Shown: piece by piece, positions 22,042 through 26,163 of the stretch
Layout of the letters: the number at the start of each line of letters is the position of its first letter
How positions within the stretch are numbered: the first letter of the stretch is position 1
From: Desulfitobacterium dehalogenans ATCC 51507
Lineage (GTDB): Bacteria > Bacillota > Desulfitobacteriia > Desulfitobacteriales > Desulfitobacteriaceae
Assembly (NCBI RefSeq): GCF_000243155.2
Contig: NC_018017.1
Span: 2,170,001-2,234,000 of the forward strand
DNA length: 64,000 nucleotides
Reading direction: 5' to 3'
Notes under the pieces: generated by a model
The model's input: only the letters and a program-made list of their open reading frames with translations
Told to the model about the DNA's origin: nothing
Database searches by the model: none
Translations under genes and position numbers: made by a program

Positions 22042-23304
22042 TCACTTTAGTAATCCTTGTTCCCAAAGTTTTTGAGCCGCTAATAGATTCCCAAACTTAA
22101 TATAATTCATGGAGATCCCGCCTTGCTGGTAAGCGATAAAGGGATCCCGCATAGGACCGTCTGCAGAGAACTCACTGGTCGCACCTTGAATAAAGGTTCC
22201 TCCTGCCATAATGACTTCATCCTCATACCCCGGCATTCCCGACGGAATGGGCAGGACATGACTATCGACAGGCGAGCCTTTCTGGAAGCCTTGACAAAAA
22301 GCAATCATGGCCTCTCGCGAATTGAGCTTGACGGCTTGAATAAGATCCGTCCGCAGGCCATCGGGAAGAGGATTCACTTCGAACCCTAAGGCCTGCCAAA
22401 AGGCGGCGGAAAAAATCGCCCCCCGAATCGCCTCACTCACGGTCAAAGGACTGAAGAAAAGCCCTTGGAAGAACTGAAGCTGCCAGCTGAGGGTAGCTCC
22501 CACCTCTCCCCCAATCCCTGGAGCTGTTAAACGGCAGGCGGCTTTCTCAACGAGTTCTTGTTTGCCGGCAATATATCCTCCTGTGGGAGCTAAACTCCCT
22601 CCCAAATTTTTAATCAGGGATCCTGCTAAGAGGTCTACTCCCACATCCCCGGGTTCGCGTTTTTCTACAAGTTCGCCATAACAATTGTCCACAAAAATAA
22701 TAAGTTTAGGAAAATGCTCACGGACATAATCCACAAATTCGGCGATTTGCTCCATATGAAGGGAATTACGCCAGGCATAACCCCGGGAACGCTGAAGAAT
22801 AAGCAGTTTCGTATTGGGTTTTATAGCTTGACCAACCAAAGGATACTGAATTGTTCCCTCTTCACTAAGGGGAATCGAGTCATAAGCTACCCCGAAATCC
22901 TTAAGGCTCCCCTGCCCTGTTCCCCGGATGCCAATCACTTCTTCCAGTGTATCATAGGGATCTCCCGTAACGGAAATAAAATGATCACCGGGTCGAAGGA
23001 CAGCAAATAAGGCTGTGGCAATGGCATGGGTTCCGGAGACAAATTGTCCCCGGACTAAAGCAGCTTCCGTGCCCAGGATCCGGGCCATGACCCGATCCAG
23101 AGTTTCTCTGCCGCTATCTCCAAGGCCATAACCTGTGGAGCCCTGCAAATGATAGGTGCTTACTCTCTCTTCCTGAAAGGCTTCCAGTACTTTGGCGTGA
23201 TTATGTTCCGCAATATCAAGTAGGGTCTTTTCCTGCAGCTGTAAAAGCTGTTCAGCCTGACCTTTTGCCTCGAGAATTTTTCTGGGCAGATTATCTAAAA
23301 ACAA
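22042..23304 (-). CDS. ynbB: PLP-dependent enzyme, YnbB / methionine gamma-lyase family
   Basis: A 420-aa fold-type I pyridoxal-phosphate protein. The PLP lysine is probably in SLIKNLGGSLAPTGGYIAG. The family is often called aluminium-resistance or methionine-gamma-lyase-related, but its substrate is not settled. It starts at TTG 23304 with GAGGAGG 9 bp upstream. Gene order spoVK-hflX-ynbB matches Bacillus subtilis. Here, however, a 162-bp palindromic element separates it from hflX, and lepB and ddl follow where B. subtilis has glnRA. Confidence 0.88.
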   Translation of the reverse strand: MFLDNLPRKILEAKGQAEQLLQLQEKTLLDIAEHNHAKVLEAFQEERVSTYHLQGSTGYGLGDSGRETLDRVMARILGTEAALVRGQFVSGTHAIATALFAVLRPGDHFISVTGDPYDTLEEVIGIRGTGQGSLKDFGVAYDSIPLSEEGTIQYPLVGQAIKPNTKLLILQRSRGYAWRNSLHMEQIAEFVDYVREHFPKLIIFVDNCYGELVEKREPGDVGVDLLAGSLIKNLGGSLAPTGGYIAGKQELVEKAACRLTAPGIGGEVGATLSWQLQFFQGLFFSPLTVSEAIRGAIFSAAFWQALGFEVNPLPDGLRTDLIQAVKLNSREAMIAFCQGFQKGSPVDSHVLPIPSGMPGYEDEVIMAGGTFIQGATSEFSADGPMRDPFIAYQQGGISMNYIKFGNLLAAQKLWEQGLLK

Positions 23305-23339
23305 TGGTGAAACCTCCTCGTTGTATCCATCTTTCTCGT

Positions 23340-23501
23340 TAGTGTAGTGGCACGTTCACATTTCGCCCAATGACTTGTCTGAATTTCCATCTGCTGCGTT
23401 GTCGTCCATCGGCGTAGCACCACTACGCCTCACTCCTCCGCCTTGCAGACTGAAAATTCATCCTGTGTCATTTGGCTGAAAGTCAACGTGCCACTACACT
23501 A
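23340..23501. mobile_element. 162-bp palindromic MITE-like element
   Basis: The ends are a perfect 17-bp inverted repeat (TAGTGTAGTGGCACGTT at 23340-23356 and its complement at 23485-23501). The two halves remain partly complementary to a central hairpin GGCGTAG-CACCA-CTACGCC (23411-23429). It has no ORF. Terminal TA dinucleotides would fit a TA-targeting (IS630/mariner-like) origin. Its right end overlaps the hflX stop codon. Confidence 0.8.
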
Positions 23502-25091
23502 GAGGAGTTCAAGGACTTTATTCCATACGGGGGTCAGTGAATTGTTTTCAATGAGGGACACGGGTATGGGATGGGACAGTTCTTGAGCTAAACGGCTTAG
23601 ATCGGAAGGATGGTCTATTTTATCAATTTTGTTCAGTAAGGTAATCCGTGGCTTGTGGCTGCACTCCAATTGCCCTAAAATGTTATGAACCGTATCGGCA
23701 CGCTCTAAGGCTCTGGGGTGGCTGGCATCCAAGACATGAACTAAAATATCGGCATTCTGCACTTCTTCAAGAGTAGCGAGAAAGGCATGGAGAAGTTGAT
23801 GAGGTAATTTCTGAATAAATCCTACGGTATCACTAAGCAATATCTCCGTCTTTCGATCCAGGCGTATCCCTCGTACGATAGGATCAAGGGTGGCAAAGAG
23901 CTTGTCCTCTCCCTTGACACTTTCTCCCTTGGAACGGGTTTGCTCCATGGCCTTTTGCAAAAAAGTGGTCTTTCCCGCATTGGTGTAACCGACTAAAGCA
24001 ATCAGGGGGATGCCGCTTTTTTCTCTTTGCCGCCTCTGAGTGGTGCGGGTCTTGCGGATTTCACCCAGTTCATCCTCTAAGAGATTGATTTTCTTTCTTA
24101 CCCGCCGCTTATCCATTTCCAGTTTGGATTCTCCGGGGCCACGGGTTCCTACTCCCCCGCCCAGCCGGGAAAGACTGAGTCCCTGACCGGTCAATCGGGG
24201 TAAAAGATGCTTAAGCTGGGCCAGCTCCACCTGAAGCTTACCTTCTCTTGATTTGGCTCGTTGGGCAAAGATATCCAGGATTAATGTGGTACGGTCCAGC
24301 ACCTTAATCCCTGTAGCCTGCTCCAGAGTTCGCAGCTGTACAGGTAAAAGCTCATCATCACAGATAAGGACATTGGCACCGCTGTTTTGCAGGTGCTGGG
24401 TTAACTCCTGCAGTTTTCCTTTTCCCAGGTAACTCACCGGGCTCCCATACCGTTTAGGCTGAAGAATCTGTCCTACCACTTCAACACCTGAAGAATGGGC
24501 AAGTTCCGACAGCTCCGTCAGCAGCTCAAGTCCCGGTTCTTCTTCCTCCAGAGCGACCAGAAAGGCTTTCTCCCGCTCAGATACCTTGAGAACCGGGCTG
24601 GGGGGGCGTAGGCGATAGTCCTGAACTGCCGTGTCGTAGGAAAAGTTCATAAGCTCCTCAGGACTTAAGGCCAGGATTGGATAGCCTGAATCTCCTGAAA
24701 AGGCAATTTCAACTCCTGTGACCTGTCCATTTCTAACCCCGATACTGCTCATGCTTTCCAGCCCGGCGGAACTCAAGGCGCTTAGATCCATAGGACTGAG
24801 CTGAGGGTTTCCGCTGGGATGGGTATGGATACAGCGCAAACGTCCCGTTTGACGGGCTGGAAGAGGGGGCAGCTTGACCGCAGCATGCTGTCCGACAGCC
24901 ACGGCGCTGACCATTCCCGAGCGATTGATATAAAGGGCTATTTCTTTATTCCACAGACTGGTTAAATTGCAGATTCCCATTAATAAATCATAATGGATAA
25001 GCTCCGGACGGGCCGTCCGGAGCGAAGTCAAATCTTTGAGTTCTTTAAGCTGGGTTCCGCGAATCCCAGAGGTATCACCCAAAATATCCAT
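23499..25091 (-). CDS. hflX: GTPase HflX, long form with N-terminal JAMM/RadC-like domain
   Basis: This 530-aa protein combines a ~165-residue N-terminal domain with canonical HflX. The N-terminal part has a full JAMM metal motif HTHPSGNPQLSPMD (His89, His91, Ser99, Asp102), very close to that of RadC. The HflX part has the glycine-rich linker (LSRLGGGVGTRGPGE), Walker A (GYTNAGKTT, ~366), DTVGF and NKID. HflX splits stalled 70S ribosomes. I start at ATG 25091 (CGGAGG, 5-bp gap); ATG 25124 lacks spacing to any site. The TAG stop lies in the terminal repeat of the adjacent palindromic element. Confidence 0.92.
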   Translation of the reverse strand: MDILGDTSGIRGTQLKELKDLTSLRTARPELIHYDLLMGICNLTSLWNKEIALYINRSGMVSAVAVGQHAAVKLPPLPARQTGRLRCIHTHPSGNPQLSPMDLSALSSAGLESMSSIGVRNGQVTGVEIAFSGDSGYPILALSPEELMNFSYDTAVQDYRLRPPSPVLKVSEREKAFLVALEEEEPGLELLTELSELAHSSGVEVVGQILQPKRYGSPVSYLGKGKLQELTQHLQNSGANVLICDDELLPVQLRTLEQATGIKVLDRTTLILDIFAQRAKSREGKLQVELAQLKHLLPRLTGQGLSLSRLGGGVGTRGPGESKLEMDKRRVRKKINLLEDELGEIRKTRTTQRRQREKSGIPLIALVGYTNAGKTTFLQKAMEQTRSKGESVKGEDKLFATLDPIVRGIRLDRKTEILLSDTVGFIQKLPHQLLHAFLATLEEVQNADILVHVLDASHPRALERADTVHNILGQLECSHKPRITLLNKIDKIDHPSDLSRLAQELSHPIPVSLIENNSLTPVWNKVLELL

Positions 25092-25129
25092 TTGAACCTC
25101 CGCTGTATAAATAACGAATGTCATTCCTG

Positions 25130-26095
25130 TTACTTTAAGTCTTCATCCTCCAGGCTCAAATCACAGGGTAGAATCCCCATGAGTTCTTCACGGGATGAAG
25201 TGGATTTTTCATAGAGTCGTACGGCCTGTTTGCGAATAGCTTTCTCCACCATATTGCGTACTAAGCGGGCATTCCCTGCATAAGGGTGGGAATTCAGGAC
25301 TCCCTGCAGCATAAAGCGGAAAGCGTCACGGGCATCAGAGGTGAACTGATATTGGCGTGTTTTAAGCATGGAGTCCCCAATGCTCAGCAGCTCTTCGATA
25401 GAGTAATCAGGGAAATCAATATGGATGGGAAAGCGGGATCTTAAGCCGGGATTGGTTTGTAAAAACCACTCCATCTCGTGTTTATAGCCGGCTAAGATGA
25501 GAATGAGATCATTTTTATGATCCTCCATGGCCTTCACCAAGGCATCAATAGCTTCTTTGCCGAAATCCTTTTCTCCCCCTCGGGCTAAAGAATAGGCTTC
25601 GTCGATAAAGAGAATCCCTCCCAAAGCCTTTTTGACCATGTCCCGAGTCTTTTGTGCCGTATGACCTATGTATTCCCCCACGAGATCCGCTCTCTCACAT
25701 TCAATAATATGTCCTTTTTGCAGAACATCCATTTCCTTAAAGAGCCTGCCGATTAAACGAGCCACCGTGGTTTTACCTGTTCCAGGATTGCCTCGGAAAA
25801 TCATATGAAGGACCAGGGGTTCTGCCACCAGTTTTTCTCGTGTCCGTCTCTTTTGGATCTCTATGTAAGCTTGAATCTCGTAGATGAGACGTTTGACTGT
25901 GGTTAAACCAACGAGGGCATTGAGTTCAGCAATGATCTCAGCCGTGGTGCTGTTTTCCGATGAATGTTGAGTTACCTTTCGTCCACGGGATAATTCAGAA
26001 GATGAATCCACGATGGCCGCTGTCTTGTGAGTCCGCGGTGTTTGAACGATCGGAGGCTGATTTTTTTCCCTCGGAAAGGTAATACGTATTGCCAT
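25130..26095 (-). CDS. spoVK: AAA+ ATPase SpoVK (stage V sporulation protein K, CbbX-like)
   Basis: A ~321-aa AAA+ ATPase with Walker A GNPGTGKTT, Walker B GILFIDEAYSLARGG and the sensor/arginine region GLRSRFPIHIDFPDYS. In Bacillus, SpoVK is made in the mother cell and needed for spore maturation; the CbbX relatives remodel Rubisco. The first ~65 residues are a variable extension. ATG 26095 sits after GGGAGGTG (11-bp gap); the upstream GTG 26107 is too close to that site. Its position just before hflX repeats the Bacillus order. Confidence 0.9.
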   Translation of the reverse strand: MAIRITFPREKNQPPIVQTPRTHKTAAIVDSSSELSRGRKVTQHSSENSTTAEIIAELNALVGLTTVKRLIYEIQAYIEIQKRRTREKLVAEPLVLHMIFRGNPGTGKTTVARLIGRLFKEMDVLQKGHIIECERADLVGEYIGHTAQKTRDMVKKALGGILFIDEAYSLARGGEKDFGKEAIDALVKAMEDHKNDLILILAGYKHEMEWFLQTNPGLRSRFPIHIDFPDYSIEELLSIGDSMLKTRQYQFTSDARDAFRFMLQGVLNSHPYAGNARLVRNMVEKAIRKQAVRLYEKSTSSREELMGILPCDLSLEDEDLK

Positions 26096-26163
26096 AAGAT
26101 GTGACACCTCCCGTCTTTACTACTATACGCAGAAAGACGGGAAAGGTGTCCTTAATTATTATC

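Follow-up and report, generated by a model that had tools for sequence, protein, structure and literature searches.

HflX, a GTPase that takes stalled ribosomes apart, is found almost universally and serves in ribosome rescue and antibiotic resistance. When the protein sits on the interface of the 50S subunit its ND1 domain lies at H69 and a loop of the helical domain at the peptidyl transferase centre (PMC12493154). The C-terminal domain, present in the E. coli type and absent in the Sulfolobus type, is variable in the family (PMC6912228), and thus is not strictly defining for HflX membership. Mycobacterial HflX has a short N-terminal extension of 39-58 residues, without a known enzyme fold, that disorders H68-H71 on splitting, and a 2025 review of HflX points out unexplained N-terminal extensions in several Clostridium and Paenibacillus species, the role of which was posed as a question (PMC12493154). 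JAMM metalloproteases, in turn, are recognized by the signature EXnHS/THX7SXXD (PMC300881). The isopeptidases AMSH, sst2 and PfJAMM1 act on ubiquitin or SAMP and have no link to the ribosome or to a GTPase; the RadC JAB protein (UPF0758) is a stand-alone protein with HNH (HNHPSG) in its motif and an HhH domain in front; and in the Cap3, BilC, BubCD and Mec+ systems the JAMM enzyme is linked to a Ubl and an E1. A search of open-licence papers for HflX together with RadC, JAB, JAMM, MPN or isopeptidase returned no relevant description. To our knowledge, no HflX form has been described with a second hydrolase domain of such a kind.

The hflX gene in the window, the whole 64,000-nucleotide stretch of DNA analysed here, encodes a protein that has the whole core, the GTPase motifs and the conserved neighbours in common with HflX and HflXr from E. 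coli, Listeria and Mycobacterium. In contrast to these proteins it carries an additional JAMM domain, and lacks the C-terminal domain, which this genus and its family do not have. The added material is located at the same N-terminal attachment point as the mycobacterial extension but is predicted to be a folded JAMM domain (PMC12493154 for the extension). With AMSH, sst2 and PfJAMM1 it shares the EXnHTHX7SXXD motif and the MPN fold, at an identity of 11-20%, while its homology to the RadC JAB domain spans the active-site half; unlike RadC it displays HTH and is fused to HflX. Linked Ubl and E1 genes like those of the Cap3, BilC, BubCD and Mec+ systems were not found by hflX among the scanned neighbours. 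Although the fusion itself may be visible in annotation databases, the conservation of its active site and the degenerate lineages described below appear to be undescribed in the searchable literature.

Features of the hflX locus, with positions in the window and residues numbered as in the 541-aa frame P0001
Feature	Position	Strand	Basis
hflX gene with N-terminal JAMM domain	23499..25091	minus	530 aa from ATG 25091
JAMM/MPN domain, predicted, residues 13-168 of P0001 (~155 residues)	24621..25088	minus	AF2, VIA, profiles
Putative catalytic Glu61 (E50 in the sequence-only reading)	24942..24944	minus	invariant in 147 distinct sequences
HTH, putative zinc ligands His100 and His102	24819..24827	minus	sequence, conservation
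Ser110-x-x-Asp113 of the JAMM motif	24786..24797	minus	sequence, conservation
Flexible linker between JAMM and HflX, residues about 169-183	24576..24620	minus	pLDDT <50 at model residues 168-173
HflX core (ND1, helical domain, GTPase domain)	23502..24575	minus	VIA Z 37.4 to ribosome-bound HflXr
P-loop GYTNAGKTT, GTPase domain	23964..23990	minus	translation; columns conserved in relatives
SpoVK-like AAA ATPase, upstream neighbour	25130..26107	minus	PF00004 and PF17866
PF06838 PLP enzyme, downstream neighbour	22042..23304	minus	domain scan

The longest open frame of the gene, P0001, covers 23499-25124 and encodes 541 aa; residue numbers given here follow this frame and exceed those of the sequence-only reading by 11. 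A Shine-Dalgarno sequence, GGAGG, is evident in the window at 25097-25101, ahead of ATG 25091, and the start methionine of the relatives is the same Met (MDI-GD) that begins the product of this codon. ATG 25091, the start adopted in the sequence-only reading, is therefore the likely one, giving a protein of 530 aa. The order of genes on the minus strand is mutL-miaA-hfq-typA-spoVK-like-hflX-PF06838-lepB, in which mutL, miaA and lepB are presumed identities, named from their translations. A PF06838 gene also lies 3' of hflX at L183 and L164, and the neighbour scan showed that the AAA ATPase and the PF06838 enzyme beside hflX are not specific to JAMM-bearing forms. No candidate for the substrate of the JAMM domain emerged from the gene neighbourhood of hflX. 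In the noncoding segment between hflX and the PF06838 gene (23336-23502), TTAGTGTAGTGGCACGTT ... AACGTGCCACTACACTAG make up a near-matching inverted pair that might be a hairpin repeat or a small mobile element.

The part of the protein after the linker is a complete HflX core. Residues 188-536 match the HflX equivalog TIGR03156 with 412.8 bits, above the cut-off of 216.75. A full-length AlphaFold2 model (pLDDT 85.7, pTM 0.64) aligns with 50S-bound HflXr (8a57) over 346 residues with an rmsd of 2.6, and its core scores VIA Z values of 33-37 against 50S-bound HflX structures, the predicted ND1, helical and GTPase domains being present as in the ribosome-bound protein. As residue 175 of the model (184 in P0001) aligns with residue 2 of HflXr, the polypeptide consists of an extra domain followed by a complete HflX. 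The C-terminal domain of HflX is not present: 344 aa follow position 198, compared with about 400 in most relatives, a C-terminus about 55 residues shorter. Most HflX proteins of family f1 are without this domain, while nearly all other JAMM-HflX proteins retain it. In four related genomes (G012, G015, G018 and G035) a second, short HflX without a JAMM domain occurs beside the fused one. A full HflX match was sought and not found in the nearly complete genomes G001 and G002, from the same family, and G080, from the same class; close relatives of all three do have HflX.

The fold of the N-terminal domain was approached through profiles and structure prediction. When the window protein was scanned with Pfam and NCBIfam, no model exceeded its cut-off over the N-terminus; the weak curated matches were to Prok-JAB, at 12.8 bits, and to RadC, at 11.8 bits where the PF04002 cut-off is 22.1, and among 48 relatives such weak matches were seen in 24 for Prok-JAB and 18 for RadC. 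A profile of the 48 relatives retrieved 21 PDB sequences, with a best E of 0.005, all of them JAMM/MPN proteins (AMSH, sst2, STAMBP, Prp8). AlphaFold2 modelled the domain alone with pLDDT 90.3 and pTM 0.84. Foldseek by itself gave weak matches to this model (best E 0.008), and VIA re-alignment of the Foldseek candidates was needed to resolve the fold. VIA ranks 1-44 are without exception JAMM/MPN proteins, headed by PfJAMM1 (Z 7.5, 113 residues, rmsd 3.4) and including Rpn11, AMSH, sst2, AfJAMM, BubCD, Cap3, BRCC36, the MPN subunit of EMC and Prp8, although all Z values for the domain are below 8, a range in which the tool warns that matches can be generic. The first row that is not JAMM is a deaminase at rank 45; its fold has been related to JAB (PMC5512222). 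The N-terminal domain is thus predicted to have the JAB1/MPN fold. The sequence-only reading, which proposed the fusion of HflX to a JAMM domain, had asked whether the predicted fold was unlike JAB1/MPN; AlphaFold2 and VIA give JAB1/MPN, and the active site of the domain is complete and strongly conserved. Its description of the domain as ‘RadC-like' holds in part. The RadC JAB domain is a detectable relative, but AMSH and PfJAMM1 fit about equally well, the motif is HTH rather than HNH and the HhH half is missing; the residues ahead of the motif belong to the MPN fold, and the partner of the domain is HflX, not HhH.

Residues 100-113, HTHPSGNPQLSPMD, contain H100, H102, S110 and D113 (H89, H91, S99 and D102 in the sequence-only reading), and together with the upstream glutamate match the JAMM signature as E61 ... 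H100-T-H102-P-x6-S110-x2-D113. Among 69 relatives, with domain identities to the query as low as about 30%, E61, R68, G70, G78, R97, H100, T101, H102, P103, S110 and D113 are invariant. Such invariance in diverged relatives shows that the motif is no chance occurrence. A wider set of 147 distinct sequences has no exception at E61, G70, G78, H100, T101, H102, S110 or D113, while P103 is replaced by Leu in six sequences and by Thr in one. As this set leaves out the sequences lacking HxH, which were counted separately, its figure for HxH is partly true by definition; those for the serine, aspartate, glycines and glutamate are independent. The upstream acidic residue suggested earlier as a candidate catalytic glutamate is hence unbroken throughout the set. 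The threonine between the two histidines is likewise invariant, as in AMSH, and is Asn (HNH) in four RadC proteins. Outside the HxH-less lineages, this pattern of substitution says that the active site is strongly selected, and zinc binding and hydrolase activity of the domain are, on the sequences and the model, quite probable. The JAMM-coding part of hflX in genome G076 is interrupted, between a first piece of 79 aa and the rest, by a group II intron carrying a reverse transcriptase/maturase (L130, 2194-3924; PF00078, PF08388; Rfam RF02001, RF01998).

The domain profile (E 0.001) matched in 77 of 398 genomes sampled from the phylum, four of these matches being RadC proteins. Removal of RadC left 73 genomes with the domain, compared with about 305 with any HflX, which puts the JAMM domain in about one in four HflX carriers. 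The frames concerned are of HflX length, bar one of 324 aa that is itself an HflX match; the motif was read solely in those genomes whose loci were retrieved. The fusion was found across Desulfitobacteriia, Negativicutes and Clostridia, and carriers among the loci listed include Caloramator, Fervidicella, Thermobrachium, Sporomusa, Selenomonas, Mitsuokella, Propionispira, Succiniclasticum and Anaerobacterium. These counts, together with the carriers named from the contig scan, agree with the earlier remark that long HflX forms are common in Clostridia. Besides RadC, no stand-alone copy of the domain was found in the sampled genomes, and as all strong matches lie in HflX frames the domain seemingly works only on HflX. 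A search of viral contigs for relatives found none, and the contig scan, by one motif pair and over the best 80 of 191 loci, suggested that the fusion is confined to Bacillota. Family f52 has HflX frames of 740-830 aa that could contain other fusions; no JAMM domain preceded HflX in the stretches retrieved from it. A quick tree of the HflX parts displays eight label changes as drawn, and its starred branches compel at most one origin of the fusion.

At least three lineages retain the JAMM domain without its zinc ligands. The HxH-less versions comprise families f42 and f94 (L111-L115, L117), f86 (L116, L118-L123) and f85 (L214, which lies under the profile threshold and was recognized by eye through NRRG and SLSGLR). 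In these versions E61, S110 and D113 are variously lost or retained, and the GTPase part of HflX is intact. They occupy three separate places in the quick tree, although support is too weak for a firm count of events. The persistence of the domain without zinc ligands implies that in some lineages part of its role is independent of catalysis.

The interpretation that we prefer, while regarding it as somewhat short of an even chance, is that the JAMM hydrolase carried by HflX acts on a protein bound to the ribosome, cleaving a peptide or isopeptide bond. HflX would have gained a zinc hydrolase of the JAMM type ahead of its first residue, joined by a flexible linker. The HflX part would dock at the 50S subunit interface and split the ribosome, and the JAMM domain would then be held near uL16 and rRNA helix 38, where the mycobacterial N-terminal extension reaches. 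From there it could access the A-site-side proteins and RNA of the 50S subunit, and would make its cut either in a factor or in a tail or modification of a ribosomal protein that is exposed once the subunits have parted. That the domain acts at the ribosome is likely, and that its substrate is protein rather than RNA is somewhat favoured. As a zinc hydrolase it is more likely a peptidase than a nuclease, judged by motif and model, and the HTH signature and the matches to AMSH and PfJAMM1 favour a peptide or isopeptide substrate. Peptidyl-tRNA partly inhibits the GTPase activity of HflX (PMC6912228); this, and the loop in the peptidyl transferase centre, would make in-place cleavage of the nascent chain awkward, so that this chain does not come first as a candidate. 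More likely substrates are a bound factor, a modification, or the tail of a ribosomal protein. The sequence-only reading had suggested a protease or hydrolase that acts on stalled complexes; the analysis turned up no evidence of a substrate for such an activity.

The nearest relatives of the domain also bring other activities into consideration. A JAB nuclease of the RadC type might cut the rRNA, tRNA or mRNA of the stalled ribosome, so that splitting cannot be undone or the ribosome is tagged for decay. Such a role is in keeping with the rRNA helices that surround bound HflX, and with the link to RadC itself: hhalign against a profile of four RadC proteins gave 96.5% probability and an E of 8.3e-10, spanning the active-site half, whole-genome searches with the domain profile matched RadC proteins alone outside HflX, and a RadC structure (2qlc) was matched with a VIA Z of 7.3. 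The RadC clade has been proposed as nucleases (PMC3482391, PMC5512222), but this role is itself a proposal, AMSH and PfJAMM1 are equally good structural matches, and the motif is HTH, not HNH, in 147/147 sequences; cleavage of RNA is thus considered rather unlikely. A little less unlikely is that the domain makes no turnover at all, and that a metal-stabilized MPN fold aids docking or rRNA remodelling. MPN-minus domains, such as those of Prp8 and Rpn8, are common scaffolds. The HxH-less versions that persist in f42/f94, f86 and f85, with remnants of the fold such as NRRG and SGLR, are what a binding module predicts, and the mycobacterial extension touches uL16 and H38 and aids splitting (PMC12493154). 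Elsewhere, however, all active-site residues are invariant at about 30% identity, and the conserved glutamate and serine would be unnecessary for a mere zinc scaffold.

Structural matches to the PfJAMM1-SAMP2 complex, BubCD, Cap3 and a bacterial Ubl-DUB complex (8tyx) raise the possibility of a deconjugase that, like the Mec+, Cap3, BilC and BubCD enzymes, removes a Ubl or sulfur carrier, in this case from ribosomal targets. In the window's own genome, however, no ThiS/MoaD match exceeded the cut-off and the single strong E1-like protein is a lone frame of 261 aa, which makes a Ubl substrate less likely; nor does a Ubl-like gene lie by hflX among the scanned neighbours, and this activity is judged improbable. 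It is very improbable indeed that the motif arose by chance, or through an artefact of annotation, in a domain without JAMM identity. Although the lack of a Pfam or NCBIfam model above cut-off is what such an artefact predicts, it is refuted by the invariance in 147 sequences, the AlphaFold2 model, the exclusively JAMM top structural matches and the RadC profile match.

That a hydrolase site stays unbroken on HflX across many genera implies chemistry that is coupled to the splitting of ribosomes. In a wider form of our preferred reading, which we hold yet more tentatively, a large part of the Clostridia-type bacteria would possess an undescribed JAMM enzyme, directed to the ribosome, that acts during splitting to cleave one specific protein (or RNA) on the released 50S subunit. 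The identity of the partner implies a cellular location for the domain, and so offers a handle on the targets of bacterial JAMM domains, RadC-like ones included. It also provides, for the extensions of the Clostridia type, a testable answer to the question posed in the review of HflX. If the proposed cleavage is true, it would add to ribosome rescue or recycling a chemical step that is known from no organism, and the lineages without zinc ligands would lack the substrate, as natural knock-outs.
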